The notes beneath the pieces are model-generated. The model had not been told where the DNA came from. It worked only from the letters and a program-made list of their open reading frames with translations, and made no database searches. The translations under genes were made by a program, and so were the position numbers. From contig CAKMKG010000010.1 in NCBI GenBank assembly GCA_927441425.1, positions 124,001 through 188,000 of the forward strand: a stretch of DNA of 64,000 bases, given 5' to 3'. Of this stretch, positions 1,639 to 25,172 are shown in pieces (position 1 is the first letter of the stretch; every line of letters begins with the position of its first letter). This DNA comes from an uncultured Bacillota bacterium. Lineage in GTDB: Bacteria; Bacillota; Clostridia; Peptostreptococcales; Anaerovoracaceae.

Positions 1639-1654
1639 GAAGGAGGAAAGCTCC

Positions 1655-3005: not shown

Positions 3006-3091
3006 ATATGAGTGTAATATTGGAGAATTTTAACACGGTTGTTAGTGCTCGCGGTTGATCTTGGGCGAGCCGGTAAAATGGAGGAACGGAA

Positions 3092-3937: not shown

Positions 3938-3961
3938 AGTATCTATAAATGCAGTTAATTT

Positions 3962-4918: not shown

Positions 4919-4928
4919 ATGACAATGA

Positions 4929-4966
4929 AAAAACATCGTACAAATGAATTGCACGATGTTTTTATT
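4929..4966 (+). terminator. Intrinsic terminator after LCP gene 1
   Basis: AAAACATCGT (4930-4939) pairs with ACGATGTTTT (4953-4962) and is followed by a T-rich run. A similar A-run on the 5' side means it could also stop the opposing ATPase transcript. Confidence 0.8.
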
Positions 4967-5013
4967 TATCATTTAATCTATTTCTAATATACTCTCGCTC
5001 CTTATAACGATTT

Positions 5014-7709: not shown

Positions 7710-7718
7710 GGAGATGAA

Positions 7719-8879: not shown

Positions 8880-8910
8880 TCAGGCAAAGATATGCAAGTC
8901 CTGATTTTGT
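8878..8910 (+). terminator. Probable terminator after the SLH gene
   Basis: AATCAGG (8878-8884) pairs with CCTGATT (8900-8906), followed by TTGTTG. The stem is short and the T-run imperfect. Confidence 0.45.
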
Positions 8911-9014
8911 TGTAGCCCTTTATTTTATCTTAACAACCCTTCTTATCATTCTTTTTTCAAAGGTTTCATTCAAAAACGATCAATTTATTCTGAAAATCCA
9001 AATCGGGAGGTAAT

Positions 9015-10583
9015 ATGGATATAGAGATATTGAATAGCAAAAAGATTGCGGAACTGCGAGAAATTGCAAAGTCTTTTCATGTTCAAAATTATGAAAAGCT
9101 GAAAAAGGCCGAGTTGATTCAGGCGATTTCACAGCCTATTAAAAGTGAGGAGGTAGCTCCGGCAAAGTCTGCGGCAGCCCCGGATCAGACCGAGGCAGCT
9201 TCGGCAAAGTCTGCAGCCAGAGCGACCACCAGAAAGAAAACCGCACCAAAGCAGGAGATAAAATCGGAACCTCCTGCTGAGGCGGCCAGCCCGGCGGAAC
9301 CTAAGACGACACCGGCAGAGCCAAAGAAGGCACCGGCAGAGCCAAAGAAGGCACCGACAGAGGCAGTGGCTCCAACAACAACAACAGCAACAGCAACGGC
9401 AACGGAAGCCGTAGCAGTCGCTGCCGAGGGTCAAACTAAGAAAAACCCGGAAGGGCCGAGAGAAGACAGACCCGAAGTAGAAGGACTTCTGGAAATCGCC
9501 GAGGGCGGCTTTGGGTTCCTTCGATTTCATAATTTCCTGACCAGTGACAAGGATATTTATGTTTCTCCGTCTCAGATCAGACGATTTAACTTAAAAACAG
9601 GGGATAAATTAAGAGGAATATCCAGAAAGCCAAATGAAGGAGAACGATTTGGCGCGTTGCTGTATGTCAATTCGGTAAACGGAGATGAGCCGGGGGTTGC
9701 CATCAGAAGACCGGACTTTGACGATTTGACTCCAATCTTTCCAAATCAGAGAATTTCACTAGAAAACGGTGCGACGGAGCTTTCCATGCGATTGATCGAT
9801 CTTGTTGCTCCCATTGGAAAAGGGCAGCGAGGACTCATCGTTGCACCGCCGAAAGCCGGTAAAACAGTACTTTTAAAGAAGGTTGCAAACAGCATCGAAA
9901 AGATGTATCCCGATATCGAAATGATCGTTCTTCTCGTTGATGAACGCCCGGAGGAAGTAACCGACATGAAGCGGTCCATCTCAGGGGAAGTCATCTACTC
10001 CACCTTCGATGAACTTCCGCAGAACCATGTAAAGGTAGCGGAAATGGTTCTGGCTAGGGCACAACGTCTCGTCGAGCACGGAAAGGATGTCGTGATCCTG
10101 ATGGACAGCATAACAAGACTGGCAAGAGCCTACAATCTTGTGATTCCGCCTACAGGAAGGACCCTGTCCGGAGGACTGGATCCCGGCGCTTTGCACAAGC
10201 CGAAAAAGTTCTTCGGTGCAGCCCGAAAAATGGAAGAAGGCGGCAGCATCACGATTCTTGCAACGGCGCTCATCGAAACCGGGAGCCGCATGGACGATAT
10301 GATCTTTGAAGAATTCAAGGGAACAGGAAACATGGAGCTGCATCTGGATCGTAAGCTTTCGGAAAAGAGAATCTTCCCGGCAATCAATCTGAACAAATCC
10401 GGAACAAGAAGAGAAGATCTGCTCATGAGTCAGGACGAGCTGGAAGCAGTCTGGACCATGAGACGAGCCATGGCGAATATCGGAACACAGGAGGTCACGG
10501 AAAATATTATTGACCAGCTTGCCCATACAAAAAACAATGCCGACTTTATCAGGCTCATAAAAAAGACGAAGCTGGAGGCATAA
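9015..10583 (+). CDS. rho: Transcription termination factor Rho
   Basis: A hexameric RNA-dependent ATPase that terminates transcription. 522 aa: an N-terminal Rho_N/SAP-like helix bundle (residues 1-40), a low-complexity insert rich in Ala, Pro, Glu, Lys and Thr (about 45-150), the cold-shock-like RNA-binding domain starting at [15 protein letters not shown], then the RecA-type motor. The Walker A-like [39 protein letters not shown] and the Q-loop region [20 protein letters not shown] are conserved. The insert lengthens the protein by about 100 aa over E. coli Rho (419 aa). Good ribosome binding site (GGGAGG). It heads the rho-DUF1385-prmC string. Confidence 0.96.
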
Positions 10584-10588
10584 AGAGA

Positions 10589-11635
10589 TTGGACTTTAAG
10601 AAAATTTTTATCAAGAGCGCTTGCCCGACAAAGGTTGGCGGTCAGGCAGTTCTGGAAGGAATCATGATGAAGGGTGAGGATCGCACTGCCGTGGTGATTC
10701 GCAAGCCTGACGACTCGCTTCATATCAAGACTGAGCTGCTGAAAAAACCGGGAAAGGTGAAAAAAATCCCGGTTTTGAGAGGCGTTTTCATCTTTGTCGA
10801 TTCTCTGGTCGTCGGGACGAGGACGCTGCTCTATTCCGCAGAAGTACTGGAGAGCTGCGAGGGCAGCCAGGGCTACGAAAAGGATAAGCTGACGCTCTGG
10901 ATGGAAAAGAAATTCGGAGAAAAGGGTGCGCTGAATGCGATCTTATATCTCTCCGTTGTGCTTGCAATTCTGTTTACAGTTGGTATCTTTATCATCGCGC
11001 CCACAGCCGTGGTGAGTGTTTTCAAATATATTACCACCAATGAGGTGGTGTTGAATCTGATCGAAGGATTTTTCCGAATCGCACTCTTTGTGATCTATAT
11101 CCTGCTCATCTCAAAGATGAAGGATATCCAGACCGTATTCCAATACCATGGAGCGGAGCACAAAGCCATTCACTGCTATGAAAGTGGATTGGAGCTGACT
11201 CCGGAAAACTGCAAGCCATTTCAAACCCTGCACCCTAGATGCGGAACCAGTTTTCTCATGTTTGTCATGGTGATCAGTCTGCTTCTGTTTTCCCTGTTGG
11301 GCTGGCCCAATCTGGCATGGAGGATCACATCCCGATTGCTGCTGATCCCCATCATCGCCGGGTTGTCCTATGAGCTACTCCGATGGGCGGGACGCAGTGA
11401 TTCCATTGCAGTGAAAATCCTAAGCGTTCCCGGCTTGCTGCTTCAGAAGCTGACCACGAAGGAGCCGGAGGAGAAACAGCTGGAGGTTGCCATAGCTGCG
11501 ATGAAGGCAGTGCTGGTGTCGGCGGAAACGCCGGTTTATGTAGGGAGTTGCGACAAGGATGGCAGGTTGATCGCGGACGAGGAAAAGCCCGCCGGTAATA
11601 CAGCCGATGAAAAACCGGAAGAGAAAGAGGAGTAA
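10589..11635 (+). CDS. DUF1385 (YqhQ-like) membrane protein
   Basis: 348 aa, starting at TTG 10589, 5 bp after rho, with GGAGG about 10 nt upstream. The N-terminal KVGGQAVLEGIMMKG is the DUF1385 signature, and FQYHGAEHKAIHCYE is a second conserved block with two histidines. Several hydrophobic helices (about residues 113-140, 155-180 and 220-260) place it in the membrane. The function is not established. Its placement between rho and prmC is common in clostridia. The C-terminal tail is charged (Glu/Lys-rich). Confidence 0.88.
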   Translation: MDFKKIFIKSACPTKVGGQAVLEGIMMKGEDRTAVVIRKPDDSLHIKTELLKKPGKVKKIPVLRGVFIFVDSLVVGTRTLLYSAEVLESCEGSQGYEKDKLTLWMEKKFGEKGALNAILYLSVVLAILFTVGIFIIAPTAVVSVFKYITTNEVVLNLIEGFFRIALFVIYILLISKMKDIQTVFQYHGAEHKAIHCYESGLELTPENCKPFQTLHPRCGTSFLMFVMVISLLLFSLLGWPNLAWRITSRLLLIPIIAGLSYELLRWAGRSDSIAVKILSVPGLLLQKLTTKEPEEKQLEVAIAAMKAVLVSAETPVYVGSCDKDGRLIADEEKPAGNTADEKPEEKEE

Positions 11636-11641
11636 TCATCT

Positions 11642-12562
11642 ATGAGCCTAATCATAAAAGAACTTTTGCAAATTGGAGAAGCAGCACTACAGAAAGCAGG
11701 CTGCATGGATCCCCGGATTGATGCGGAACTGATTATGCGATTCCTGTTGACGATGGACAGGCAGGAGTTATTTATCAAATCTGCCTCCTTGCTTGATGAA
11801 AAAAGATGCGAAGCATATTTTAAACTGATCGACATCAGAGCCGGAGGAACACCGGTCCAATACATAACCGGAGAACAGGAATTTATGGGAATTCCCTTCA
11901 AGGTCAACGAGAATGTCCTGATCCCAAGGCAGGATACGGAGACTCTGGTTGAGGAAATCATCAGTGACTTGAAAGCCATGACCGCCGGGAAAAAGAACCC
12001 GGGAGGCGGATATCTGATCTTGGATTTATGCTGCGGAAGCGGTGCCATCGGGGTAAGCCTCTGCAAGCTGATCAAGGAGGTCAGGGTGACGGGAACCGAT
12101 ATTAGCGGCAAGGCAATCACCGTTGCAAAAGAAAATGCACAGAATGCCGGTGTCGGCAAGCTGATGAAATTTGTGGAGAGTGATTTATTCGGCTCCCTGC
12201 GAAAAGGGATCGGTGGAACAAAGTATCATGTGATCGCATCCAACCCCCCTTATATCAGGAGGGAAATCATACCAACCCTGCAGCGAGAGATTACGGAGCA
12301 TGAACCGTTGCTGGCCCTGGACGGCGGAGAGGACGGACTAGATTTTTATCGCCGCATTCTAAAGGACGCCCCGGAGTATCTCAAGACGGAGGGAATGCTG
12401 TTCCTCGAGATTGGGAACGATCAGGGGGAGGCGGTCTGTGATATGGCTAGAAGCACAGAGCGGTTTGAAGCGATCACCGTCGTGAGAGATCTTGCCGGCC
12501 ATGACAGAGTGGTAAAATGTAAACTGAAACGGCCTGAGAAAAAGTCCCGCAAGAAAAAATAA
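11642..12562 (+). CDS. prmC: Peptide chain release factor N5-glutamine methyltransferase
   Basis: 306 aa. It methylates the glutamine of the GGQ motif in release factors, using S-adenosylmethionine. The N-terminal helical domain carries IDAELIMRFLL. The SAM-binding motif ILDLCCGSGAIGVSL lies near residue 125, and the substrate-clamping NPPY is at about 200-203. TPVQYITGEQEFMG is also typical of the family. The start is 7 bp after the DUF1385 gene. Its target release factor gene prfA is usually the immediate neighbour, but here it lies 13 kb downstream, separated by the dehydratase cluster. Confidence 0.95.
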   Translation: MSLIIKELLQIGEAALQKAGCMDPRIDAELIMRFLLTMDRQELFIKSASLLDEKRCEAYFKLIDIRAGGTPVQYITGEQEFMGIPFKVNENVLIPRQDTETLVEEIISDLKAMTAGKKNPGGGYLILDLCCGSGAIGVSLCKLIKEVRVTGTDISGKAITVAKENAQNAGVGKLMKFVESDLFGSLRKGIGGTKYHVIASNPPYIRREIIPTLQREITEHEPLLALDGGEDGLDFYRRILKDAPEYLKTEGMLFLEIGNDQGEAVCDMARSTERFEAITVVRDLAGHDRVVKCKLKRPEKKSRKKK

Positions 12563-12856: not shown

Positions 12857-14521
12857 ATGAAAAGATCGAAACGATTTGAAAAGCTGGAAAAAATGCCAAT
12901 CAATTCAGACGGCTTTTCTTACGAGTGGGTGGACGTTGGTCTGGTCACCATGGAATCGCCCAATGATCCAAATCCAAGTATTCGCATCGAGAATGGACGA
13001 ATCGCGGAAATGGATGGCAAGGAACGAAAGGACTTTGATTCCCTAGATAAGTTTATTGCAGATTATGGAATCAATGTGGCGGAAGCGGAACGATCCATGG
13101 GCATCGACTCCCTTGCAATTGCAAGGATGCTGGTGGACATTCACGTATCAAGACAGGAAATTGTAAAAATTTGCAGTGGCTGTACACCGGCAAAGCTGGT
13201 GGAAGTGATCAATCATCTCAATGTCGTGGAGATGATGATGGCTCAGATGAAGATGAGAGCGAGAAAGAATCCGGCAAATCAGGCACACGCAACCAATCTG
13301 GATGACAATCCGGTATTGATTGCGGCCGATGCGGCGGAGGAAGCATTGAGAGGCTTCGCGGAAGTGGAGACCACCTGCGCCCTTGCCCGCTATGCGCCTT
13401 TTAACGCCATCGCACTGATGCTGGGTGCACAAACCGGAAGAGCGGGGGTCCTCAATCAGTGCTCCATGGAAGAAGCGACTGAGCTGGAGCTTGGGATGAG
13501 AGGCTTTACCTCCTATGCGGAAACCTTATCTGTTTACGGAACGGAAACCGTATTGATTGACGGCGGAGATACCGCTTATTCCAAAGCATTCCTGGCCTCC
13601 GCCTATGCATCCAGAGGAATCAAGATCCGATTCACCTCAGGGACAGGCTCTGAAGTGTTGATGGGAAATGCAGAACAAAAGAGCATGCTGTATTTGGAGG
13701 TGCGCTGCCTCTTTCTCACGAAGGCCTGCGGCGTGCAGGGGATCCAAAACGGATCCATCAACGCCATCCCGCTGGTTGCAGCTTTGCCAAACGGATTCAG
13801 AGCCATCGCAGCGGAAAACCTGATTGCTTCCATGCTGAACATTGAAGTTGCGGCAGGAAACGATACCGCATTTACCCATTCCGATTTCAGAAGAGGCGTT
13901 AAGCTGGCAATGCAATTTATGCCGGGAACCGACTACATCACATCAGGCTTCGGCGGAATTCCAAATCTGGATAACGTATTTGCAGGCTCAAACGAGGACT
14001 GTGACGATTATGATGACTTTTATGTGCTGCAAAGAGATATGAAGGTGGACGGCGGTATCAAACCCATCAAGGAAGAGGACGCGATCGCTGTCCGCAACAT
14101 GGCGGCAAAGGTCTGTCAGACCGTATTCCGACATCTGGGTCTGCCTGAAATCACCGATGAGGAAGTGGAAGCGGCAACCTACGCGTATTGCTACACGGAT
14201 ATGCCTCCAAGAAACAAAGCAGAGGATATGAAGGCCGCAACGGACATGATGGAAAGAGGAATCACAGGCTTTGATATTGTGAAGGGTTTGCATGAAAACG
14301 GATTTGAAGAAATCGCGGAACGGGTCATGAATATGCTGAAGCAGCGTGTCATCGGCGACTATCTCCATACCTCTTCTGTCCTGGATGAAAATTTCAAGGT
14401 CATGAGTGCAATCAACAATCAGAACGATTATATGGGTCCGGGAACGGGCTACCGTCTAAGCGACGAGCGGTGGGCTGAGCTGAAAGAAAAATTCAATGCG
14501 TTGAAACCGCAGGATATTTAG
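12857..14521 (+). CDS. pduC: B12-dependent diol/glycerol dehydratase-type large (alpha) subunit, copy 1
   Basis: 554 aa TIM-barrel subunit of an adenosylcobalamin enzyme that, in known members, converts 1,2-diols or glycerol to aldehydes. The ATG at 12857 follows AGGAGGG. An in-frame ATG at 12797 lies inside the leader hairpin and is rejected. Compared with Klebsiella PduC (numbering offset +1), the catalytic and metal residues are kept: Gln142, His144, Glu171, Glu206, Glu222, Gln297, Asp336, Ser363 and Phe375. Two substrate-pocket residues differ: Asn302 replaces Ser301 and Thr337 replaces Gln336. First gene after the structured leader, followed 16 bp later by the beta subunit. The fold assignment is certain; the substrate is not known. 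Confidence 0.93.
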   Translation: MKRSKRFEKLEKMPINSDGFSYEWVDVGLVTMESPNDPNPSIRIENGRIAEMDGKERKDFDSLDKFIADYGINVAEAERSMGIDSLAIARMLVDIHVSRQEIVKICSGCTPAKLVEVINHLNVVEMMMAQMKMRARKNPANQAHATNLDDNPVLIAADAAEEALRGFAEVETTCALARYAPFNAIALMLGAQTGRAGVLNQCSMEEATELELGMRGFTSYAETLSVYGTETVLIDGGDTAYSKAFLASAYASRGIKIRFTSGTGSEVLMGNAEQKSMLYLEVRCLFLTKACGVQGIQNGSINAIPLVAALPNGFRAIAAENLIASMLNIEVAAGNDTAFTHSDFRRGVKLAMQFMPGTDYITSGFGGIPNLDNVFAGSNEDCDDYDDFYVLQRDMKVDGGIKPIKEEDAIAVRNMAAKVCQTVFRHLGLPEITDEEVEAATYAYCYTDMPPRNKAEDMKAATDMMERGITGFDIVKGLHENGFEEIAERVMNMLKQRVIGDYLHTSSVLDENFKVMSAINNQNDYMGPGTGYRLSDERWAELKEKFNALKPQDI

Positions 14522-14537
14522 GAAGGAGGGTGCAAAC

Positions 14538-15101
14538 ATGTCAGACGAATACGAAAACAACATCACAGTGACCGAATTGGACACGGCTTCTCAGGGAACC
14601 GGTGCTGATGAGGTAGTCATTGCAGTTTCACCGGCCTTTGGAACCAAAATAAAAAAATCGATTGTAGACATCGGACTGGATAAAATACTGAAAGAATTAT
14701 GTGCTGGTATTGAAGAGGAAGGGCTGAAGTATCGCTTCGTCAAGGTATATAACTCTACGGATCTTGCTCTTATCGCAAGTCAGGGTTCCAAGCTTTCCGG
14801 TTCCGGCATCTGTGTGGGTCTGCAGTCAAGAGGCACAACGGTGATTCATCAAAGAGATCTGGTCCCCTTGGATAACCTGGAATTGTTCCCCCAATCTCCC
14901 CTTTATGATGAAACAATCTATCGGAAGATAGGGAAAAATGCAGCTAAATATGCCAAGGGAGAAAATCCGGAACCGGTGGAAATCCTGAATGATTTCATGG
15001 TACCCTCCAAATATTTGGTGAAATCCACATTGCTTCATTTTAAGGAAGGCGAAATGATGGATAAGTCAAGAAAGGCTGTCAATGTGGAAATCACATTTTA
15101 G
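14538..15101 (+). CDS. pduD: Dehydratase medium (beta) subunit, copy 1
   Basis: 187 aa, the medium subunit that with alpha sandwiches adenosylcobalamin. It has the family blocks ADEVVIAVSPAFG, LCAGIEEEGLKYRFVKVY, SKLSGSGICVGLQSRGT, VIHQRDLVPLDNLELFPQ and KIGKNAAKYAKGENPEP. It starts after GGAAGGAGGG and shows no N-terminal extension of the kind that targets PduD to microcompartments beyond about 20 polar residues. The matching small subunit is not next: a permease gene intervenes before pduE. Confidence 0.9.
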   Translation: MSDEYENNITVTELDTASQGTGADEVVIAVSPAFGTKIKKSIVDIGLDKILKELCAGIEEEGLKYRFVKVYNSTDLALIASQGSKLSGSGICVGLQSRGTTVIHQRDLVPLDNLELFPQSPLYDETIYRKIGKNAAKYAKGENPEPVEILNDFMVPSKYLVKSTLLHFKEGEMMDKSRKAVNVEITF

Positions 15102-15167
15102 CAGATACATGAACCGTTATTATAAGATTAAGGTATTGTGAAGTTTTAAAGAAAAGGAGAACAGATT

Positions 15168-16499
15168 ATGTCAAACAACAACACAGACTTACAACTGAAA
15201 AAAGTTCTGAAGCCGATACATTTATGGGCGATTGCTGTTGGCTTAGTTATTTCCGGACAGTTTTACGGATTTAGCTATGGATATGCAGCAGGCGGACCGG
15301 TATCATTCTTATTATCCTTTATCCCCGTCAGTATTTTCTATTTCAGCTTTATCTTCTGCTACACAGAGCTTGCCACAAGCATTCCCCACGCGGGGGGGCC
15401 GTCGGCATACACACGCAGAGCAATGGGACCTTTCTGGGGATTTGTAACCGGCTTTAGTATGCTGCTTGCCTTCCTCATGGCACCTTGCGCGATCTCCCTT
15501 GCAGTGGGCGCAGTCATCAATTTCTTGTTTCCTGCGATCCCTGCAATGACAGCAACCATGGTATTCTTGATTGGATTTATCTTAATTGCCACATTAGGAG
15601 TCGAATCCTCTGCAAAGATTGAGCTTGCGGTTACCGTACTTTCTTTACTGGGTCTTCTGCTATTCTATTTCCTGGCAGCGCCTCATTTTGAAGTGGAAAA
15701 CCTGATCACCACACCTGCATTGACCAATGGCTTTTGGGGAATCTGCGGAGCCGTTACCTTTGCAATGTGGCTCTATTTCGCAGTAGAAGGTGCTGCGATG
15801 AGCGCGGAAGAAATGAAAAACCCGAAAAAAGATATTCCGAAGGCGTATATCGGCGCAATGTTAACACTGGGCGTTACCGCGCTGATCACCATCGTTTTAG
15901 CAGGCGGCGTAGGAGATTACCAAGCGATTGCTTCTGTTGATTTCCCGCTGACACAGGCGTTGTCCAATGCATTGGGACCTGACAGCGTATGGGTAACGAT
16001 TATGGCTTTGGTTGGATTGGTTGGCTTAACAGCCAGTATGATCGGCTGTGTTCTTGGCTATTCCCGTCAATGCTATGCAATGGCCAGAACCGGTTACCTT
16101 CCGGAGTTCCTTTCAAAATTGAATGTCAAGTTTAAGACACCTCACTATGCTCTGATCGTACCCGGAGTCATTGCAGTTGCAGTAGCGCTTTCCGGACTGA
16201 CTGCAGTTGTTATCACCATTTCCGTATTCAGTGCATTATTCATGTATATCCTTGCAACAATCAGTGTGTTTATTCTTCACAAAAAAGAACCAAACATGGA
16301 GAGACCATACAAAGTTGCCTATCCAATCATGCCGATCATATCCTTGGTCAGCGTACTGTTCATTACCTTCTGCGTCGTTGCCTTCAATCTGGCAATCGTC
16401 AAGTGGGTACTGCTGGTTTACGCAATCGCGATCCTCTATTACTTCCTGCTGGGAAGAAAAAGACTAAGACCTTACGAGGAAGAATTCGACCTGGATTAA
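15168..16499 (+). CDS. APC-family permease, ethanolamine-permease-like
   Basis: 443 aa with about 12 membrane helices. It belongs to the amino acid-polyamine-organocation family. Segments such as VISGQFYGFSYGYAAGG, PHAGGPSAYTRRAMGPFWGF, YFAVEGAAMSAEEMKNPKKD, YSRQCYAMARTGYLPE and EPNMERPYKV recall ethanolamine permeases (Eat) as I remember them; no alignment was run. It is placed between the beta and gamma subunit genes, 66 bp after pduD and 15 bp before pduE, and so belongs to the same transcript. I infer that the dehydratase substrate, or a precursor, is an amino alcohol or similar amine-bearing compound rather than plain propanediol or glycerol. Confidence 0.85.
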   Translation: MSNNNTDLQLKKVLKPIHLWAIAVGLVISGQFYGFSYGYAAGGPVSFLLSFIPVSIFYFSFIFCYTELATSIPHAGGPSAYTRRAMGPFWGFVTGFSMLLAFLMAPCAISLAVGAVINFLFPAIPAMTATMVFLIGFILIATLGVESSAKIELAVTVLSLLGLLLFYFLAAPHFEVENLITTPALTNGFWGICGAVTFAMWLYFAVEGAAMSAEEMKNPKKDIPKAYIGAMLTLGVTALITIVLAGGVGDYQAIASVDFPLTQALSNALGPDSVWVTIMALVGLVGLTASMIGCVLGYSRQCYAMARTGYLPEFLSKLNVKFKTPHYALIVPGVIAVAVALSGLTAVVITISVFSALFMYILATISVFILHKKEPNMERPYKVAYPIMPIISLVSVLFITFCVVAFNLAIVKWVLLVYAIAILYYFLLGRKRLRPYEEEFDLD

Positions 16500-16514
16500 T
16501 AGGAGGTGAATGAA

Positions 16515-16934
16515 TTGGAAAAGCTAAATGCAAATACGGATTATCCGTTATATGAAAAACATCCGGAGCTCATCAAAACCCAGACAGGGAAATCCATAGA
16601 TGAAATCAATATGGAAAACATCCTTTCCGGGAAGGTAATGCCCTCTGACTGCAGAATCAGCGCCGAGACTCTGGTCTATCAGGCCGAGATTCAGGAATCC
16701 TTCGGGAATCCTGCAATCGGTGCGAACTTCCGCCGGGCGGCAGAGATGACCCGGATCCCAGACGATAGGATCATCCAGATCTACAATCGCATGAGACCCC
16801 ATGTTTCCACAAAGGAAGAGCTCTTGGCCATCGCTGAGGAATTGGAAACACAGTATGATGCCAAGATCAATGCCGCCTTATTACGAGAAACAGCGGAAGT
16901 ATATGAAGAAAGAAAAATGTTCCGCGTAGACTAG
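16515..16934 (+). CDS. pduE: Dehydratase small (gamma) subunit, copy 1
   Basis: 139 aa helical small subunit of the dehydratase. Family features are DYPLYEKHPELI, TGKSIDEI, DCRISAETLVYQAEIQE, ANFRRAAEM and RMRPHVSTKEELLAIAEELE. TTG 16515 is chosen: it sits 8 nt after AGGAGG and aligns with the ATG of the second copy (MDRLHVKKDYPL). The alternative GTG at 16506 overlaps the ribosome binding site. It is followed by a long hairpin and the reactivase genes. Confidence 0.9.
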   Translation: MEKLNANTDYPLYEKHPELIKTQTGKSIDEINMENILSGKVMPSDCRISAETLVYQAEIQESFGNPAIGANFRRAAEMTRIPDDRIIQIYNRMRPHVSTKEELLAIAEELETQYDAKINAALLRETAEVYEERKMFRVD

Positions 16935-16974
16935 TAAAATCAGATATGATAGACTTGAAGCATAAATTATAAGT

Positions 16975-17036
16975 AAGCTGTACAAATCACTACCGTTGCC
17001 CCTGCTTCAGCAACGGTAGTGATTCCCGTACAGCTT
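16975..17036 (+). promoter_or_regulatory. Long near-perfect hairpin between pduE and the reactivase genes
   Basis: AAGCTGTAC (16975-16983) pairs with GTACAGCTT (17028-17036), and inside it ATCACTACCGTTGC (16986-16999) pairs perfectly with GCAACGGTAGTGAT (17010-17023). No T-run follows, so a simple terminator is unlikely. It could be an mRNA processing or stability element or an operator palindrome that uncouples reactivase from subunit expression. Confidence 0.7.
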
Positions 17037-17068
17037 GAAAAATTTCTGCATACCCCAGGGAGGAAAAG

Positions 17069-18904
17069 ATGATTCAGTATGTAGCCGGAGTGGATATCGG
17101 GAATGCCACAACGGAAACCGCATTAGGACAGATCCAAGACGGAAAGCTGCTGCGTTGTGTCAGTGGTATTTCGGCAACCACGGGGATCAAGGGCACGAAA
17201 GAAAATATGCAGGGAATCCGTCTCTCTTTGAAGGATGCGGCGGAAAAACTGGGCATCAATTTTGCGGATTTGGATCTGATTCGAATCAATGAGGCAACAC
17301 CGGTGATTGGTGATTTTGCCATGGAAACAATCACAGAAACCATCATAACGGAATCCACCTTGATCGGGCATAATCCGGATACGCCGGGGGGACTCGGTCT
17401 CGGAAAAGGAAGGACCATACGGATCACGGAGCTCGATGGAGCAGATAAAAATGAAAAATATATTGTTGTCGTACCGGAGGAAATCGATTTTGTCGATGCG
17501 GCAAGAATCATGAATGATAGAGTGAAGGAAGGGTATCAAATTGAGGGAGCCATCATCAAAAAGGACGATGGCGTGCTGGTGAACAACCGTCTGGATCGTA
17601 AGATTCCGATTGTAGACGAGGTGGAGATGATCGGCAGAGTTCCTTTGGGTATGCCCTGTGCCGTGGAGGTGGCGCCGCCAGGCAGCTGCATCGATCTTCT
17701 TTCCAATCCTTATGGGATCGCCACGGTGTTCGAGCTGAATACGGAAGAAACAAAGCAGATCGTCCCAATCGCAAAAGCATTGATTGGGAATCGGTCCGCT
17801 GTCGTCATAAAAACCCCTGCCGGGGAAATCAAAGAGAGAAGGATTCCCGCAGGAGAGATCATGATCCATGGTGAGCAGAAAACCTATAAGGCTTCTGTTG
17901 ATCATGGTGCACAGGAAATCATGGCGGTAGTCGGGAAGGTCAATCGGATCAAGGACGTGACCGGAACGACAGGAACCAATGTGGGAGGCATGCTGGAGAA
18001 GGTCCGCCATGAGATGGCAATTCTCACCGAACAGGACAGCAAGGATGTTTTTATCAAGGACTTAATGGCAGTAGATACCATCGTGCCCAAGGAGGTCCAG
18101 GGAAATCTGGCCAAAGAATTTGCTATGGAAAAAGCGGTGGGGATCGCGGCAATGGTAAAGACTCACAAGCTGCATATGGAGCGTTTGGCGAAGACGCTGT
18201 CGGAGGAGCTTTCCATCCCCATCGACATTGGCGGTGTGGAGGGCAGCATGGCTGTCAGAGGCGCCCTGACGACGCCGGGGACGGACAAGCCCCTGCTGGT
18301 GCTGGATATCGGAGCGGGATCCACCGATGCCTGTCTGATGGACGAAAATGGAAACACGAAGCCCATCCATCTGGCGGGAGCCGGAAACATGGTCACAATG
18401 CTCATCAGCGCAGAGCTGGGACTGGACGATTTCCGTCTGGCCGAGGATATCAAGAAATATCCCCTTGCCAAGGTGGAATCCCTGTATCATGTCAGACATG
18501 AGGACGGCAGTGTCCAATTCTTTGAAGAGGCAATCGACAGCAAGCTATTTGCGCGAACCATCATCGTAAAGCCGGCAGGCTGGAAGGCGATCAAAACAAA
18601 GAAGCCCCTTGAGAAAATCAAGCAGGTCCGAAGAGAAGCGAAGGAAAAAGTTCTGATACAAAATATTTTAAGGGCGTTGAAAAAGGTTTCCCTCACGGGA
18701 AATATCAATGAGTTTGAGCACGTGGTGCTGGTGGGAGGATCCTCCCTTGACTTTGAACTGGGAAATATGGTCACCGATGTCCTCTCCTACTATGGAATCG
18801 TCAGCGGGAAGGCCAACGTGAGAAAAACAGAGGGGCCCAGAAATGCGGTGGCTACCGGTCTCCTGCTTTCTTATCTGGAGGAAGTGAACCATGGAAAAGG
18901 TTGA
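17069..18904 (+). CDS. ddrA: Diol dehydratase reactivase, large (ATPase) subunit
   Basis: 611 aa, DdrA/PduG-like. In known systems the DdrAB complex uses ATP to release damaged cobalamin from inactivated dehydratase. The actin-like ATPase domain has GVDIGNATTETALG at the N-terminus and VLDIGAGSTDACLM near residue 410, with LVGGSSLDFELG further on. EGAIIKKDDGVLVNNRLDRKIPIVDEV and the swivelling domain blocks are typical. The ATG follows GGGAGG. This is the only reactivase pair in the window and would have to serve all three dehydratase sets. Its stop overlaps the small subunit gene by 14 bp, implying translational coupling. Confidence 0.93.
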   Translation: MIQYVAGVDIGNATTETALGQIQDGKLLRCVSGISATTGIKGTKENMQGIRLSLKDAAEKLGINFADLDLIRINEATPVIGDFAMETITETIITESTLIGHNPDTPGGLGLGKGRTIRITELDGADKNEKYIVVVPEEIDFVDAARIMNDRVKEGYQIEGAIIKKDDGVLVNNRLDRKIPIVDEVEMIGRVPLGMPCAVEVAPPGSCIDLLSNPYGIATVFELNTEETKQIVPIAKALIGNRSAVVIKTPAGEIKERRIPAGEIMIHGEQKTYKASVDHGAQEIMAVVGKVNRIKDVTGTTGTNVGGMLEKVRHEMAILTEQDSKDVFIKDLMAVDTIVPKEVQGNLAKEFAMEKAVGIAAMVKTHKLHMERLAKTLSEELSIPIDIGGVEGSMAVRGALTTPGTDKPLLVLDIGAGSTDACLMDENGNTKPIHLAGAGNMVTMLISAELGLDDFRLAEDIKKYPLAKVESLYHVRHEDGSVQFFEEAIDSKLFARTIIVKPAGWKAIKTKKPLEKIKQVRREAKEKVLIQNILRALKKVSLTGNINEFEHVVLVGGSSLDFELGNMVTDVLSYYGIVSGKANVRKTEGPRNAVATGLLLSYLEEVNHGKG

Positions 18905-19268
18905 AAACAAATCCCTTCCTGTCATCGAGATCCTCAGCGAGGCGGGCCAGCAAGGCTTGGCCGAAGCGGTGGGATATGGGATTGAAGAGGAAGGACTGCC
19001 CTATCACATTACCAGCGGAGCATTCACCCCGTCTGATGCCTATGATATTTGTCATGGGGTGGGACTTGGGGTTTCCATCCTGATCCAGGCCGGAGCGGTT
19101 TCGGTCTTTACCAGACAGCTGCAGGAGAAGAGACCTTTGTTCGATTATCCTGTCAGAAACGTGGAAATGGCAAAGGCCACCGGTAAAAATGCGGCAAGAA
19201 TCATAAAAAACAAGCCATTTATCGATTTGGACGAAATGGAGGAACAAGATGTTTCAGTTAAAAAGTGA
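18891..19268 (+). CDS. ddrB: Diol dehydratase reactivase, small subunit
   Basis: 125 aa, DdrB/PduH-like. It resembles the dehydratase beta subunit fold, which it displaces during reactivation. Visible features are AEAVGYGIEEEGLPYHI, DICHGVGLGVSILIQAG and VRNVEMAKATGKNAARIIKNKPF. It overlaps ddrA by 14 bp at its start and the YbhB-type gene by 20 bp at its end. It sits in the usual ddrA-ddrB order. Confidence 0.9.
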   Translation: MEKVENKSLPVIEILSEAGQQGLAEAVGYGIEEEGLPYHITSGAFTPSDAYDICHGVGLGVSILIQAGAVSVFTRQLQEKRPLFDYPVRNVEMAKATGKNAARIIKNKPFIDLDEMEEQDVSVKK

Positions 19269-19758
19269 AGGAATCCGCAATGGATTGATATTGGATCCCT
19301 ATGGGATCAACGGGGACAACAATAAACAGGGCGTACCGCAGCGGTCTCTGCCCTATGAATGGGAAGGCGCGCCGGAAGGGACGAAATCCTTCGCCATCGT
19401 ATTCCAGGATTATGACAACGTTCCCGATGAGGGCTTCAGCTGGCTCCATTGGCTGGTGGCGGATATTCCTGCGGCTGTAAGATCGCTGTCGGATAATGCC
19501 AGCAGAGAAGATGGCACTTTGGTGCAGGGTACAAATAGCTGGAGCATCCCCTACGGTCCCTATGGGTCGATCGATGAGGATTTGACTCATCATTACGGTG
19601 GTCCGGCTCCGGAACGCCGCCATGAATATGAGACGAAAATTTACGCGCTGGATACGTTGCTTGCCTTGCAGCCGGGATTTTATTATAATGAGCTGCTGCG
19701 TGCCATGGAGGGACATATTCTGGCCGAAGCCACGCTGAAGGGCTATTATGGGGAATAA
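19249..19758 (+). CDS. YbhB/YbcL family (PEBP-like) protein
   Basis: 169 aa with the phosphatidylethanolamine-binding-protein fold. YEWEGAPEGTKSFAIVFQDYD and FSWLHWLVADIP are the hallmark ligand-site segments, followed by GTNSWSIPYGPYG and HHYGGPAP. The physiological role of bacterial homologues is unclear. There is no signal peptide, so it is probably cytosolic. Its ribosome binding site lies inside ddrB, which it overlaps by 20 bp, so it is tightly embedded in the dehydratase operon and likely co-expressed. I cannot infer a direct enzymatic role; binding of a phosphorylated or anionic small molecule is possible. Confidence 0.88.
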   Translation: MFQLKSEGIRNGLILDPYGINGDNNKQGVPQRSLPYEWEGAPEGTKSFAIVFQDYDNVPDEGFSWLHWLVADIPAAVRSLSDNASREDGTLVQGTNSWSIPYGPYGSIDEDLTHHYGGPAPERRHEYETKIYALDTLLALQPGFYYNELLRAMEGHILAEATLKGYYGE

Positions 19759-19779
19759 AAGGACAGGAAGCTTGAAAGG

Positions 19780-20202
19780 ATGAACCATCAGAATTTCGAC
19801 AGTAAAATGAGAAATAAGATGCGCAAAGAAGTCGAAGATTTTTATAAATCATGGGTTCACAAGAATTTTCAAAAAGGCTTACGAGACGCAAGGGTAATCA
19901 TTACAGGAAATCTTGTAGTGATTATTGGCGTGGAGTTTTTGACCTACGTGGAACAGTCGATTTTAGATGATGAATACAGCAAGCAAGCGGTGGCTCATAC
20001 GAGAAGGAAGCTGGTGGAAAAGTTTTTCCCTGTTTTAAAGCAAAACCTTGAGTTGATCCTGTCACAAAAAATTGCGTACTATTTTATAGATTTTTCTATG
20101 GATGACAATATGTCCTGCATGACGATTCTTTGCGAAGGGGAGGTAGTACCCTCCTTTGACAAGGGAAAGGAGGGTAACATTGAAAAGATCGAAACGGTTT
20201 GA
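19780..20202 (+). CDS. DUF2294/MpsC-like protein
   Basis: 140 aa. The pattern LRDARVIITGNLVVIIGVEFLT, then VAHTRRKLVEKFFPVLKQNLE and YYFIDFSMDDNMSCMTIL, matches DUF2294, a family also linked to the MpsC sodium-dependent bicarbonate/membrane-potential system of staphylococci. No membrane helix is seen. The C-terminus overlaps the TTG start of the second large subunit by 23 bp. Its presence inside the cluster is unusual. The function here is unknown. Confidence 0.75.
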   Translation: MNHQNFDSKMRNKMRKEVEDFYKSWVHKNFQKGLRDARVIITGNLVVIIGVEFLTYVEQSILDDEYSKQAVAHTRRKLVEKFFPVLKQNLELILSQKIAYYFIDFSMDDNMSCMTILCEGEVVPSFDKGKEGNIEKIETV

Positions 20203-21841
20203 AGTATTGGAAAAAAGACCGATCAATCTGGACGGCTTTTCTGAGGAATGGGCAGAGGTCGGCCTGATTGCCATGGAATCGGAGTACGATCCGGAACCGA
20301 GCATTGAGATTCAAAGCGGGGTCGTGATGGAGATGGATGGAAAGCGAAGAGAAGCGTTTGATTCCATCGATCTGTTCATCGCCGACTATGGGATCAATCT
20401 GGACAATGCGGAAGCTGCAATGAAGACAGATACGCTGCAAATTGCAAGGATGCTGGTTGATGTCAATGTCTCACGGGACGAAATCCTGAAAATAACGACT
20501 GCCATTACCCCCGCCAAGATCACGAAGGTAATGAGCCATTTGAACGTTGTAGAGATCATGATGGCACAGATGAAAATGAGGGCACGTAGACGACCCTCCA
20601 ATCAGGCTCACATCACAAATCTGGAGGACAATCCGGTCTTGATGGCGGCTGATGCCGCCGAGGCTGCGCTGCGGGGTTTTTCTGAAATTGAAACCACCAC
20701 TGCCGTATCCCGGTATGCACCGTTTAATGCGCTAGCGTTACTCGTTGGCGGACTTTGCGGGAAACGAAGGATTCTTTCTCAATGTTCTCTGGAGGAAGCT
20801 TTGGAGCTGAAGATGGGAATGAAGGGGTTGACCTCTTATGCAGAAACCGTATCGGTTTACGGCACCGAGGCAGTGATGACCGACGGAGATGACACGCCAT
20901 GGTCCAAGGGGTTCCTGGCATCCATCTATGCGTCTCGAGGGATGAAAATGCGATTCACTTCCGGCACGGGAGCGGAAGTTCTTATGGGAAATACGGAAAA
21001 GAAATCCATGCTGTATCTGGAGGCCAGATGCCTGTTTTTGACCAAGGGATGCGGTGTGCAGGGTACCCAGAACGGCTCAGTCAGCTGCATCGGTATTCCG
21101 GGAGCGGTCCCCGGAGGTTTTCGTGTCATAGCGGCGGAGAATCTCATGGCTTCCATGCTGAATCTGGAGGTTGCCTCGGGAAATGATCAGACCTTTACCC
21201 ATTCCGACATGAGAAGAATGTCGAAGGTCTTTATGCAGCTGCTGCCGGGAACGGACTTTATCAGCTCCGGCTACAGTGCCATGCCGAATTACGATGATAT
21301 GTTCGCAGGCTCCAATACGGACTGCGACGACTATGATGACTGGTACATTTTACAGCGTGATATGCGCGTTGACGGCGGCATTCTCCCCATTCGGGAAGAG
21401 GATGCCATTGGGATAAGAAATAAAGGAGCAAAAGCGCTCCAGGCTGTATTTCAATATTTTGATCTGCCTGAGATCACCGAGGCGGAGGTGGAAGAGGCAA
21501 CCTATGCCTATTCCAGCTATGACATGCCGAAACGGAATATGGTGGAGGACCTGAAGGCGGCGGAACGGTTCCTGGCCGGCAATACCGGCTTTGACGTGGC
21601 GAAAGCCTTATGGGAAAAGGGCTTTCAGGACGTGTCGGAAAACGTTCTGGATATGCTGAAGCAGAGAATTACCGGGGATTACCTTCATACGGCGGCGATC
21701 TTCGATGAGGAATTTAAATTAGAAAGTGCATTAAATGATCCCAATCTTTATGAAGGACCGGGAACGGGTTACCAGATTTCTGAAGAGCGATGGAGCAAAA
21801 TGATACAGAAGGAAAACATATTAGGACCCAGTGCTCTTTAG
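20180..21841 (+). CDS. pduC: B12-dependent diol/glycerol dehydratase-type large subunit, copy 2
   Basis: 553 aa. TTG 20180 follows AAAGGAGGG and aligns with the start of copies 1 and 3 (KRSKRFE). The upstream ATG at 20156 is inside the DUF2294 gene. This is the most canonical of the three: His144, the glutamates of IETT and YAET, GTQNGSVSC (Ser at the Klebsiella 301 position) and GNDQTFTHSD (Gln at the 336 position) are all retained, together with SSGYSAMPN. It would therefore be predicted to act on glycerol- or propanediol-like substrates. It is followed by its own beta and gamma genes without a permease. It is coupled by overlap to the DUF2294 gene. Confidence 0.93.
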   Translation: MKRSKRFEVLEKRPINLDGFSEEWAEVGLIAMESEYDPEPSIEIQSGVVMEMDGKRREAFDSIDLFIADYGINLDNAEAAMKTDTLQIARMLVDVNVSRDEILKITTAITPAKITKVMSHLNVVEIMMAQMKMRARRRPSNQAHITNLEDNPVLMAADAAEAALRGFSEIETTTAVSRYAPFNALALLVGGLCGKRRILSQCSLEEALELKMGMKGLTSYAETVSVYGTEAVMTDGDDTPWSKGFLASIYASRGMKMRFTSGTGAEVLMGNTEKKSMLYLEARCLFLTKGCGVQGTQNGSVSCIGIPGAVPGGFRVIAAENLMASMLNLEVASGNDQTFTHSDMRRMSKVFMQLLPGTDFISSGYSAMPNYDDMFAGSNTDCDDYDDWYILQRDMRVDGGILPIREEDAIGIRNKGAKALQAVFQYFDLPEITEAEVEEATYAYSSYDMPKRNMVEDLKAAERFLAGNTGFDVAKALWEKGFQDVSENVLDMLKQRITGDYLHTAAIFDEEFKLESALNDPNLYEGPGTGYQISEERWSKMIQKENILGPSAL

Positions 21842-21885
21842 ACTTCAGGGTTACAGAGTACGAAGGACTTCTAGAGGTGAATGGA

Positions 21886-22467
21886 ATGAGCAATACAGAA
21901 AAAAGACTGGAGCTGGAAATCAAGGAATTGGGGACAGCGGAACCAAGAGGTGAGGCCGATGAGATCATCATAGCCGTATCTCCCTCCTTCGGCGTCCAGC
22001 AAAGGGAAACCATCGTAGGTTTGCCCCACGCCATTGTTGTGAGAGAACTGGCCGCCGGGGTGGAGGAAGAAGGCTTCAAGCCCCGCTTCGTAAAATATTA
22101 CAATAGCTCTGATCTTTGCTCCTTTGCCAATGAGGCGGCGAAACTCAGCGGGTCGGGAATCAGCATCGGGATTCAGTCCAAGGGCACTATCATGATCCAT
22201 CAAAGAGATTTGGAGCAGCTGGACAATCTGGAGATTTTCCCTCAGGCGCCTTTGTACGATGCGGAGATTTACCGCAAGATCGGGAAAAACGCGGCGCGCT
22301 ACGGAAAAGGGAACACACCGGAGCCCGTACCTACGCTGAACGATCAGATGGCCCTGGCCAAATATCAGATCAAAGCAGCATTGCTGCATATTAAAGAAAC
22401 CGAGCTGGTTGTCAGCAAGAAACCGCCGGTGGATTTAGAACTTCATATCAAGGAGGTAGCCGAATAA
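21886..22467 (+). CDS. pduD: Dehydratase medium (beta) subunit, copy 2
   Basis: 193 aa from ATG 21886, which follows GAGGTGA; the longer in-frame ATG at 21790 would start inside pduC copy 2. Family blocks are DEIIIAVSPSFGVQQRE, LAAGVEEEGFKPRFVKYY, SGISIGIQSKGT, MIHQRDLEQLDNLEIFPQ and IGKNAARYGKGNTPEP. These parallel copy 1 closely. The stop codon overlaps the start of the gamma subunit by one base, indicating coupled translation and a fixed subunit ratio. Confidence 0.9.
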   Translation: MSNTEKRLELEIKELGTAEPRGEADEIIIAVSPSFGVQQRETIVGLPHAIVVRELAAGVEEEGFKPRFVKYYNSSDLCSFANEAAKLSGSGISIGIQSKGTIMIHQRDLEQLDNLEIFPQAPLYDAEIYRKIGKNAARYGKGNTPEPVPTLNDQMALAKYQIKAALLHIKETELVVSKKPPVDLELHIKEVAE

Positions 22468-22886
22468 TGGATCGATTGCATGTGAAAAAGGATTATCCTC
22501 TGGCGGATAAACGGCCTGAGCTTATTTTGACACCCACGGGAAAGAAAATCGACCAGATCACCATGGAGCAGGTGCTGGAGGGGAATGTCACCATCGACGA
22601 CTGCAGGATCAGTGACCGGACATTGGAATATCAGGCACAGATCTCAGAATCAGCGGGAAACCGCCAAATGGCGGCAAATTTGAGAAGAGCAGCAGAACTC
22701 ACCACATTTTCCGATGAACGGGTGTTAGAGATCTATGGTGCTTTGCGGCCCTTCCGTTCCACCAAAGAGGAACTTCTAAAAATCGCAGAGGAACTGGAAG
22801 CTAAGGGTGCGGTGCTGAATGCCGCCTTTGTAAGGCAGGCAAGCGAAGTATATCAAAAGCGGAAGAAACTGAAGGGTGACAAGTAA
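22467..22886 (+). CDS. pduE: Dehydratase small (gamma) subunit, copy 2
   Basis: 139 aa. MDRLHVKKDYPLADKRPELI, GKKIDQITMEQVLEGNV, DCRISDRTLEYQAQI, ANLRRAAELTTF and RPFRSTKEELLKIAEELEAKG match the small subunit family and copy 1. The ATG overlaps the beta stop (TAATG arrangement). This is the last gamma gene in the cluster; the third large-subunit gene that follows has none of its own. Confidence 0.9.
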   Translation: MDRLHVKKDYPLADKRPELILTPTGKKIDQITMEQVLEGNVTIDDCRISDRTLEYQAQISESAGNRQMAANLRRAAELTTFSDERVLEIYGALRPFRSTKEELLKIAEELEAKGAVLNAAFVRQASEVYQKRKKLKGDK

Positions 22887-22937
22887 TCACTTAAAAAATG
22901 AAACGAAAGCTGCAATCAGAAAGAGAGAAGGATCGCC

Positions 22938-25172
22938 TTGAAAAGGTCAAAAAGATTTGAAAAACTGGATAGAAGACCGATCAATCAGGATAGCTTTGTC
23001 GCCGAATGGCCCGAGGGAGGTCTTTCTGCCATGGGCTCTCCCTATGATCCATTGCCTGGAATTCGGATCGAGGACGGACGGATTGTCGAAATGGACGGCA
23101 AAGCCTATGAAGATTTTGATTCCCTAGAGCTTTTTATTGCGGAACACGGAATCAATTTGGAGATGGCAGAGCAGGCTATGGCCTTAAAGCCGCAAGAAAT
23201 CGCCCGATGGATTGTTGATATTAACGTGAAGCGGGAAGAGGTCATTCGCATTACAACCGCAATCACGCCCGCCAAGATGCTGCAGGTAGTCAGATGCCTC
23301 AATGCAGTTGAAATGATGATGGGCCAGATGAAAATGAGAGTCCGAAGAACGCCGGCCAACCAGGCCATCGTTACAAATATAAAAGACAATCCGGCGCTCC
23401 TTGCAGCGGATGCGGCGGAAGCGGCACTGCGGGGGTTTTCCGAAATTGAGACAACCTGTGCCGTATCCAGATATGCGCCCCTGAATGCCCTATCTATTTT
23501 AGTGGGAGGACAGACCTGCAGAGGCGGGGTCCTGACCCAATGCTCCATGGAAGAATCTCTGGAGGTCAGAATGGGGATGTTGGGACTGACCAGCTATGCA
23601 GAGACTGTTTCCTTGTATGGAACAGAAGCGGCAATGGACGACGGCGACGATACCATCTGGTCCAAGGCTTTTTTGGCATCCGTTTATGCATCCAGAGGAA
23701 TGAAGATGCGATTTACCTCAGGAACGGGAGCAGAGGTGCTGCTAGGACACAGCAATCAAAAATCCATGCTGTATCTGGAGATCCTCTGCGTATATCTGGC
23801 GCGCTCCTGCGGCGCTCAGGGCGTACAGAATGGCTCCATCAGCTGTATCGGCATTACCACGGCTGTGCCGGAAGGGTTTCTCGCCATCGCGGCAGAAAAT
23901 TTAGTGGTATCCCTGCTGGATATGGAAGTTGCATCGGGGAATGACCAGACCTTCTCCCATTCAGATATGAGGAGAACGGCAAAGCTTTTAATGCAGATGA
24001 TGCCGGGTACGGACTTCATCACATCGGGCTACAGTGCCACGCCAAATTTTGACGACCTGTTCGCCGGATCCAACACGGATTGCGATGATTATGACGACTA
24101 TTATATGATTCAAAGAGATATGCAGATCGATGGTGGGATCGAGCCGATTCTGGAAAAGGATGCCATTACAGCCAGAAATAAAGCGGCGAAGGCTTGCCAG
24201 GCAGTGTTCAAGGGACTTGGACTTCCGATCATCACCGATGAAGAGGTGGAAGCTGCCACCTATGCTTATTGCAACGAAGAGATGCCCCCAAGAAATATGG
24301 CGAAGGATCTCGTGGCAGCCCAGGAATTTTTCAATCAAGGGGTGAATGCCATCGATATTGTGAAAGCACTGTATCAGGGAGGCTTTACAAGGGTTGGAGA
24401 CAATGTTTTGAAAATGCTGAAGGAACGGGTTTGTGGGGACTACCTGCAGGTTGCCACCATATTTGATAAAGATTTTAAAACCGTAAGCGGGCTGAACGAC
24501 TCCAATGATTATCAGGGCCCGGGGACCGGCTATCGTTTGCAGGGTGAACGGTGGGAGAAGCTGAAGAAAAAGACCACCGCTCTGGTGCCCGATACAATTT
24601 TAGAGAAACAGGGTGTGCTGGATAAAAAGAAGGGCTTTTACAAGCTGACCGAGGAGAGAAATGCAGAAGCCGGCGAAGCTGATGTGGTTGTCGGAATTTC
24701 TCCTGCCTTTGCAAACCGTGCTACGGCGGAAGAGATCTATCATAACCATTACCGCATTCTGGAAAAAATCCTGGAAGGTGTGGAAGAAGCCGGCATGAGT
24801 ACTGCGGTTGTTAAGATTTACCATACCGACGATCTGGCTGAAATTGCCAAGCTGAGTGCAGGCTTCAGCAAAACAGGAATTGGAATCGGCATCCAGTCCA
24901 AGGGTATGGTTCGGATCAATCATGCCGACCATATTGCGGAAGATAGCCTTGAGGTTTCCTTTCATATGCCATTCTCCAGTTTTTCCCTGTTCAAAGAAAT
25001 CGGGATCAACGCAGTGGAATACGCCCGGGGATCAAAGCCTCTACGGGTTTCCGACAAAATCAAACCGGGAGGACTGACCAGCTACCAGATCGCCATGATC
25101 AAGCTGAGCTCCGATGAAACTGCCTTTATCAACCGGAGGAAAAAACCCACCCGTATGTTACTGAACATATAA
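22938..25172 (+). CDS. Divergent dehydratase alpha-beta fusion protein, copy 3
   Basis: 744 aa from TTG 22938. Residues 1 to about 553 are a diol-dehydratase large subunit, a linker of about 25 aa follows, and residues 580-744 are a beta-subunit domain (EADVVVGISPAFAN, VEEAGMSTAVVKIYHTDDL, GIGIGIQSKGM). The catalytic histidine equivalent to Klebsiella His143 is Ile144 (codon ATC at 23367-23369), while the glutamates, GVQNGS, GNDQTF and ITSGYS motifs are kept. The beta domain lacks the HQRDL block (INHADH instead) and its end differs. No gamma gene or reactivase follows. It could be an enzyme with altered chemistry, one that borrows gamma from copy 2, or a non-catalytic relative. Confidence 0.88.
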   Translation: MKRSKRFEKLDRRPINQDSFVAEWPEGGLSAMGSPYDPLPGIRIEDGRIVEMDGKAYEDFDSLELFIAEHGINLEMAEQAMALKPQEIARWIVDINVKREEVIRITTAITPAKMLQVVRCLNAVEMMMGQMKMRVRRTPANQAIVTNIKDNPALLAADAAEAALRGFSEIETTCAVSRYAPLNALSILVGGQTCRGGVLTQCSMEESLEVRMGMLGLTSYAETVSLYGTEAAMDDGDDTIWSKAFLASVYASRGMKMRFTSGTGAEVLLGHSNQKSMLYLEILCVYLARSCGAQGVQNGSISCIGITTAVPEGFLAIAAENLVVSLLDMEVASGNDQTFSHSDMRRTAKLLMQMMPGTDFITSGYSATPNFDDLFAGSNTDCDDYDDYYMIQRDMQIDGGIEPILEKDAITARNKAAKACQAVFKGLGLPIITDEEVEAATYAYCNEEMPPRNMAKDLVAAQEFFNQGVNAIDIVKALYQGGFTRVGDNVLKMLKERVCGDYLQVATIFDKDFKTVSGLNDSNDYQGPGTGYRLQGERWEKLKKKTTALVPDTILEKQGVLDKKKGFYKLTEERNAEAGEADVVVGISPAFANRATAEEIYHNHYRILEKILEGVEEAGMSTAVVKIYHTDDLAEIAKLSAGFSKTGIGIGIQSKGMVRINHADHIAEDSLEVSFHMPFSSFSLFKEIGINAVEYARGSKPLRVSDKIKPGGLTSYQIAMIKLSSDETAFINRRKKPTRMLLNI

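Follow-up and report, generated by a model that had tools for sequence, protein, structure and literature searches.

Why should a bacterium encode three B12 enzymes of the diol dehydratase family side by side, in a locus that holds neither shell genes nor aldehyde-handling genes? The question is raised by a 64,000-nucleotide stretch of DNA, analysed at full length and called the window below, from an uncultured Bacillota bacterium of the Anaerovoracaceae (assembly GCA_927441425.1, contig CAKMKG010000010.1, positions 124,001 to 188,000). Diol dehydratase, a radical enzyme of the textbooks, is known chiefly from propanediol and glycerol. In the window, 12 genes follow one another on the + strand from 12857 to 25172, between prmC (11642-12562) and rpmE (25330) with prfA (25637), in the order a1, b1, permease, g1, DdrA, DdrB, PEBP, MpsC, a2, b2, g2, a3b3. 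Here a, b and g are the large (alpha), medium (beta) and small (gamma) subunits, DdrA and DdrB (DdrAB) make up the reactivase, PEBP is a protein of the phosphatidylethanolamine-binding (PEBP/YbhB) family and MpsC an MpsC-domain protein. Neighbouring genes are at most about 130 bases apart, which makes a single operon likely. An earlier note on this DNA had reported, within exactly these bounds, two alpha-beta-gamma sets, an alpha-beta fusion and a single DdrAB; every gene that it named is present by Pfam and NCBIfam matches, but the permease, PEBP and MpsC had been overlooked. The answer that we favour, and to which we would give an even chance of being right, is that these genes specify two modules, with one reactivase, of a side-branch of the adenosylcobalamin-dependent diol/glycerol dehydratases that is cytosolic and has no shell. 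Module 1 (a1 b1, permease, g1, DdrAB and PEBP) would serve an amine-bearing alcohol, and module 2 (MpsC, a2 b2 g2 and a3b3) would combine a diol dehydratase and an altered partner whose subunits are tethered.

The phylogeny of the large subunits, a check proposed in the earlier note, separates the three copies from the canonical enzymes, as had been expected there. In a maximum-likelihood tree of 46 of the 88 aligned rows (three diagnostic columns excluded; rows of less than 300 residues, and canonical rows more than 85% identical to a kept row, omitted), a1, a2 and a3 do not group with canonical copies. Together with their orthologues, the a1-type subunit of G055 (L015) and the fusions L099, L101 and L102, they form one 17-row clade with a support of 100/100. 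Another fusion, L100 (G091:C9), is a long branch outside this clade, and its placement is unsure. The window large subunits are 61-64% identical to the Klebsiella chain 1iwp_A and match PF02286 with 924 (a1), 934 (a2) and 894 (a3) bits. Their subunits, reactivase and active-site residues place a1 and a2 in the diol/glycerol dehydratase family.

Within the active site of a1, it is the substrate pocket that differs. In the numbering of the Klebsiella oxytoca enzyme, from which 1iwp_A is offset by one, E170, E221, Q296, D335 and S362 are invariant in all 88 rows and Q141 is found in 87, the remaining row having a gap; a1 and a2 have all of these and H143 as well. The pair S301/Q336, present in 77 rows and retained in a2 and a3, is replaced in a1 at both C3-side residues (S301N and Q336T). 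N301/T336 occurs in seven rows, every one of the a1 type, and four rows, all of them fusions, have D301/T336 (three) or D301/G336 (one). The class sample, in which 28 of 391 genomes matched PF02286, own genome included, has S301/Q336 in all 27 loci other than the genome's own; three near-duplicates left out of the first comparison (L119, L124 and L126) proved on later reading to carry it too. In the phylum sample (30 of 398 genomes matched), the pair is found in 27 of the 28 loci read, one being unreadable (L179, past a frame break) and another partial (L180). Second copies listed without a locus stand outside these counts. According to the accessible part of PMC9850924, glycerol receives a hydrogen bond at its 3-OH from S301 of the known enzyme, and chain-length preference changes when these residues are mutated singly (S301A, Q336A) or together, the Klebsiella mutants accepting longer diols. 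This suggests for a1b1g1 a substrate whose third substituent would be neither the CH3 nor the CH2OH found in known substrates. The claim that the system lies outside the standard propanediol/glycerol model is supported by the pocket of a1, but not by those of a2 and a3 with their canonical pair; a2 may be an ordinary diol dehydratase, since it retains S301/Q336.

What could this substituent be? An ethanolamine-type permease stands immediately before g1 in all nine a1 loci of the family (the window, G098, G093, G192, G158, G305, G085, G005 and G002, the contig of the last starting inside the permease). The TIGR00908 model was run on three permeases, those of the window, of L026 and of the eut locus, and all score above its cut-off. 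From this type of permease, together with Asn or Asp at position 301, we infer that the substrate may bear an amine. The permeases of G005, Sinanaerobacter and L024 are mutually 88-92% identical, and with the first two of these the G002 fragment shares 93% identity. A tenth a1-type locus (G055, L029) has a different APC permease upstream, 25% identical. The window permease (15168-16499) looks to have been swapped in place, because it has diverged while the adjoining b1 and g1 still share 84-94% identity with their counterparts in Sinanaerobacter and G005.

Of the 13 loci of the branch and its relatives with a readable neighbourhood, 11 have an adjoining PEBP gene (the window, G098, G093, G192, G158, G305, G085, G055, G091:C2, G261 and G002; the G005 neighbourhood, cut by contig ends, is outside the count), and shell genes are found in none of the 13 within the stretches read. 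Canonical loci with long flanks, hand-picked from lists, served as controls. Among 11 shell-type loci, all with shell genes, none has a PEBP. Fourteen dha-type loci were added because the first 11 controls were all shell-type, and in them PEBP, ethanolamine-type permease and shell gene are each absent (0 of 14), while 13 carry an iron-type (Fe-type) alcohol dehydrogenase. The contrast drawn in the earlier note with classical loci is therefore sound, the window operon having neither shell genes nor this dehydrogenase. In the phylum sample, a shell gene lies within 1.5 kb at 21 of 28 loci and a PEBP at none, which is a weaker control for PEBP because in the a1 cassette it is several kb away from a1. 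An alignment of nine PEBP copies has 37 invariant columns. A literature search pairing diol dehydratase with phosphatidylethanolamine-binding protein gave no match, and one pairing it with ethanolamine permease gave a single review, most subscription journals being outside its coverage, so that absence in print is unproven. MpsC was seen only where a2/a3 are present.

These observations have to be set against a plainer explanation, that is, ordinary duplicated cytosolic diol/glycerol dehydratases in which the pocket changes of a1 tune chain length towards longer 1,2-diols, the permease being a passenger. Such an enzyme would keep its metal ligands and D335, as is seen here, and S301/Q336 in a2 and a3, the longer diols taken by the Klebsiella mutants and the many canonical clostridial copies that are likewise shell-free all agree with it. 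However, Asn and Asp would not be simple pocket enlargers like Ala, the permease slot stays with a1 in every family locus, the window slot still holding a diverged permease of the same model, and dha-type loci lack such a permease and have the alcohol dehydrogenase that is missing here. We consider this explanation unlikely, if quite credible.

Several further points weigh against a shell-free branch with an amine-directed module. As every metal ligand is retained in a1, this enzyme could still act on 1,2-propanediol or glycerol, or be a diol dehydratase with another size preference. Family models of permeases are weak guides to substrate, and the window permease is 54-58% identical to the same-slot permeases of its relatives. 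No PEBP was found at G226, where about 320 bases before the fusion are available, or at G091:C9, outside the clade, and the more distant fusions have different neighbours (urease-like genes, an NCS1 or SSF transporter, an Fe-type alcohol dehydrogenase). The grouping of a2 with a3 inside the clade is weak (88/53). Finally, an AlphaFold model of a3b3 from a 10-row alignment reached a mean predicted local distance difference test score of 55 and a predicted template modelling score of 0.38; it was left unused in the residue argument.

The tethered copy raises a question of its own. Where three dehydratase sets had been announced, sets 1 and 2 are complete, passing the curated cut-offs for large, medium and small subunits, but set 3 has neither a gamma of its own nor His143. 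Its large subunit continues into a medium-subunit domain (PF02288 at residues 589-701) that lies above the Pfam and below the NCBIfam cut-off and is strongly diverged (97 bits, against 260 for b1 and 270 for b2). Across the 88 rows, position 143 is His in 83, a gap in one and Ile in four, the last being the a3 copies of the window, G005, G002 and Sinanaerobacter (four of four, in two genera); the fusion of L024 retains His. The genome (3.58 Mb assembly, rated 90% complete, with the window in contig C10) encodes three alphas, two gammas and one DdrA. Because no third gamma was found, a3b3 would need to use g2 or g1, and our guess is a mixed complex with a2b2g2.

Might a3b3 instead be a pseudoenzyme, either non-catalytic or decaying? 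In the accessible part of PMC7674605, the Klebsiella H143A mutant has a turnover number of 5.1 per second compared with 304, and is inactivated faster; the lack of an own gamma and the high divergence of the beta domain are of the same tenor. On the other side, the 744-residue frame is intact, Ile143 is conserved in all four copies, and Q141, E170, E221, Q296, D335 and S362 are retained. Between the window and G005 copies (92% identical, 749 codons), synonymous divergence (dS) is 1.09 and nonsynonymous divergence (dN) 0.043, a ratio (dN/dS) of 0.040; for a2 against Sinanaerobacter it is 0.046, these being the two usable of nine pair comparisons, the other seven saturated at silent sites. By the ratio between the window and G005 copies, the a3 frame is under purifying selection and decay was rejected; the intact frame, low dN/dS and conserved Ile143 count against decay, not against a non-catalytic role. 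We hold the pseudoenzyme, in either form, to be rather doubtful, and a3b3 is best described as a dehydratase by descent that fails in one catalytic feature.

A third possibility, put forward in the earlier note, is a multi-step eliminase pathway, in which one polyol or amino-polyol would be processed by three enzymes in succession. That an operon with a single reactivase contains three diverged copies could be read in this way, but nothing indicates sequential steps, the operon has no intermediate-handling enzymes, and module 1 occurs alone. The short cassette a1 b1 permease g1 DdrA DdrB PEBP stands by itself in four metagenome-assembled genomes (MAGs; L026, L027, L032 and L039), two of them named from goat cecum and water deer rectum, and three of the four (G158, G192 and G305) have a single large subunit in the entire genome. 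A stepwise pathway is thus very improbable.

The same gene order, which the earlier note had proposed to search for in other genomes, does exist elsewhere. A scan of named genomes found it complete in Sinanaerobacter chloroacetimidivorans BAD-6 (L022; G098 in the family sample) and in MAG UBA5559 (L024), while two members of the window's genus have parts of it on their contigs (L021, from G005, and L023, from G002). The accessible part of PMC11362086 sets Sinanaerobacter beside other Anaerovoracaceae genera. In both the window and L022 the operon sits between prmC and rpmE-prfA; the genes downstream in L024 are different. Six genomes of the window's genus have no large subunit, and in three of them (G004, G007 and G008) the site is empty, since prmC, rpmE and prfA lie together; in G006 a contig ends at the site, and in G003 no prfA was found. 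In G001 (L142, G001:C37), unlike these three genus members, there is no PrmC match beside rpmE-prfA. Over the family sample, 19 of 296 genomes have a PF02286 gene, 12 belonging to the branch or its relatives and seven being canonical by residues and neighbours.

How does the operon compare with known systems? It shares PduCDE/PduGH homologues with the Pdu microcompartment, and differs from it in having no shell genes, no N-terminal targeting extensions and no aldehyde or alcohol dehydrogenase. The DhaB123 loci of Klebsiella and clostridia are closer, with the same subunit make-up, a reactivase, short untargeted beta and gamma N-termini and no shell; here, however, the large subunits form a separate clade, the a1 pocket is changed, an alpha-beta fusion comes without gamma, and PEBP, MpsC and an amine-type permease stand where dha-type loci carry the alcohol dehydrogenase. 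With eut operons it has in common an ethanolamine-type permease and a B12-dependent elimination, whereas EutBC is of a different family, absent from the window operon and encoded among shell genes, with its own permease, on contig C13 of the same genome. The operon is thus neither a Pdu microcompartment system, nor a dha-type locus, nor a eut operon. Alpha and beta are likewise joined in one chain in the single-chain glycerol dehydratase of PDB 9vi2 and four related sequences, which we take to be engineered; the fusion here is natural, its beta domain has diverged, and His143 is missing in two genera. An alpha-beta fusion variant of Gibson et al. is described in the accessible text of a review (PMC7674605), which gives the effect of such a fusion on reactivation as not known.

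Short N-termini extend over the branch. At most 24 residues precede the conserved anchor in all 19 branch gammas, against at least 49 in 47 of 65 canonical ones; for beta, at least 45 precede it in 48 of 61 canonical copies and 17-57 in 13 branch copies, the maximum of 57 being that of b2, which drops to 25 with the start chosen here. As untargeted canonical copies exist too, this feature marks the enzymes as cytosolic rather than new. That microcompartment and aldehyde-handling genes are missing, as claimed at the outset, is true of the operon (no shell protein, aldehyde dehydrogenase or alcohol dehydrogenase among the 12 proteins between prmC and rpmE) but not of the genome, where 21 matches to the bacterial microcompartment (BMC) domain, 20 of them above cut-off, fall in two other regions and none in the window. 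Targeting of the operon enzymes to these compartments was considered and rejected for want of N-terminal extensions.

Features of the 12-gene run, with positions in the window
Feature	Position	Strand	Basis and remarks
a1, dehydratase large subunit	12857..14521	+	PF02286; ATG at 12857; N301 codon 13760-13762, T336 codon 13865-13867
b1, medium subunit	14538..15101	+	Pfam/NCBIfam; no N-terminal targeting extension
APC-family permease	15168..16499	+	TIGR00908 (ethanolamine permease), 439 bits, cut-off 381.75
g1, small subunit	16515..16934	+	TTG start picked by ribosome-binding stretch; frame open from GTG 16506; untargeted
DdrA, reactivase large subunit	17069..18904	+	TIGR04491, 918 bits; sole copy found genome-wide
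DdrB, reactivase small subunit	18891..19268	+	small PF02288 match; assigned by position after DdrA
PEBP/YbhB-family protein	19249..19758	+	TIGR00481, 108 bits, cut-off 57.75
MpsC-domain protein	19780..20202	+	PF10057
a2, large subunit	20180..21841	+	PF02286; TTG start; canonical pocket residues
b2, medium subunit	21886..22467	+	frame open from 21790; start set by comparison with relatives
g2, small subunit	22467..22886	+	Pfam/NCBIfam
a3-b3 fusion, 744 residues	22938..25172	+	TTG start; Ile for His143, codon ATC 23367-23369; stop codon ends at 25172

A ribosome-binding stretch is recognisable for most of these genes, the starts of g1, b2 and MpsC being less certain. Chance or false reading frames were rejected on the Pfam scores (180-930 bits for most subunits, 55-115 for the medium-subunit matches) and on synteny elsewhere. 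No cobalamin riboswitch was found across the window at the gathering threshold, and the sole match between 12300 and 25700 at E up to 1, an animal microRNA model far under its threshold, was taken as chance.

Our favoured scheme, a cytosolic two-module branch, would work as follows. The permease would import a small amine-bearing alcohol (an amine-bearing diol or an amino alcohol), from which a1b1g1, its pocket changed around the substrate C3, would eliminate water or ammonia through the usual radical chemistry. Duplication probably added module 2; a2b2g2 would retain the canonical diol pocket, and the tethered a3b3 most likely has g2 as its gamma and would be the slow, specialised or regulatory half in a mixed complex. 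Enzymes encoded elsewhere, possibly the aldehyde dehydrogenases of the microcompartment loci, would take over the aldehyde. One might go further and speculate that the a1 type, evolved inside the diol dehydratase family, is a B12-dependent eliminase whose substrates bear an amine (aminodiols or amino alcohols, for instance 3-amino-1,2-propanediol or 1-amino-2-propanol), with Asn301 (Asp301 in the fusions) replacing the Ser that contacts the third substituent, that a3b3 is the His143-less partner in an a2b2g2/a3b3g2 complex, and that PEBP is a new accessory protein; so specific a version is quite unlikely, and is offered as a conjecture.

One of the two microcompartment regions, about 100 kb upstream (L044, G000:C10:18000-37999), encodes 5-methylthioribose kinase and isomerase, an aldolase-like protein, an aldehyde dehydrogenase matching PRK15398 and a DhaK-like protein, and is perhaps for methylthioribose or deoxyribose breakdown. 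A shell-gene-rich stretch on C13 (L045-L047, G000:C13:100000-159999) encodes the choline trimethylamine-lyase CutC and the CutC activase as well as EutBC, which has an ethanolamine permease to itself. Among the distant fusions, L100 (8432-15493) is very diverged (D301, G336); it is preceded by an NCS1-type permease, and its reactivase genes are followed by an HbpS-like protein; at L037 an SSF transporter and an Fe-type alcohol dehydrogenase lie beside the fusion; at L040/L101 (about 1450-11720) urease-like genes, named by eye, are followed immediately by PEBP, an alpha-beta fused dehydratase, gamma and DdrA; and at L099 the gene after PEBP (6078-7181), next to the fused dehydratase, encodes a protein distantly related to 2,4-diaminopentanoate dehydrogenase.

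In this lineage, the two residues mutated by engineers for specificity are altered by nature, and the change is coupled to an amine-type importer. It also has a conserved His143-less copy and natural alpha-beta fusions, and the fusions render the beta-swap model of reactivation testable, because beta cannot dissociate when tethered. The repeated presence of PEBP next to the dehydratases offers a possible functional setting for a widespread bacterial protein family, and the operon as a whole may act on substrates outside those tried so far.

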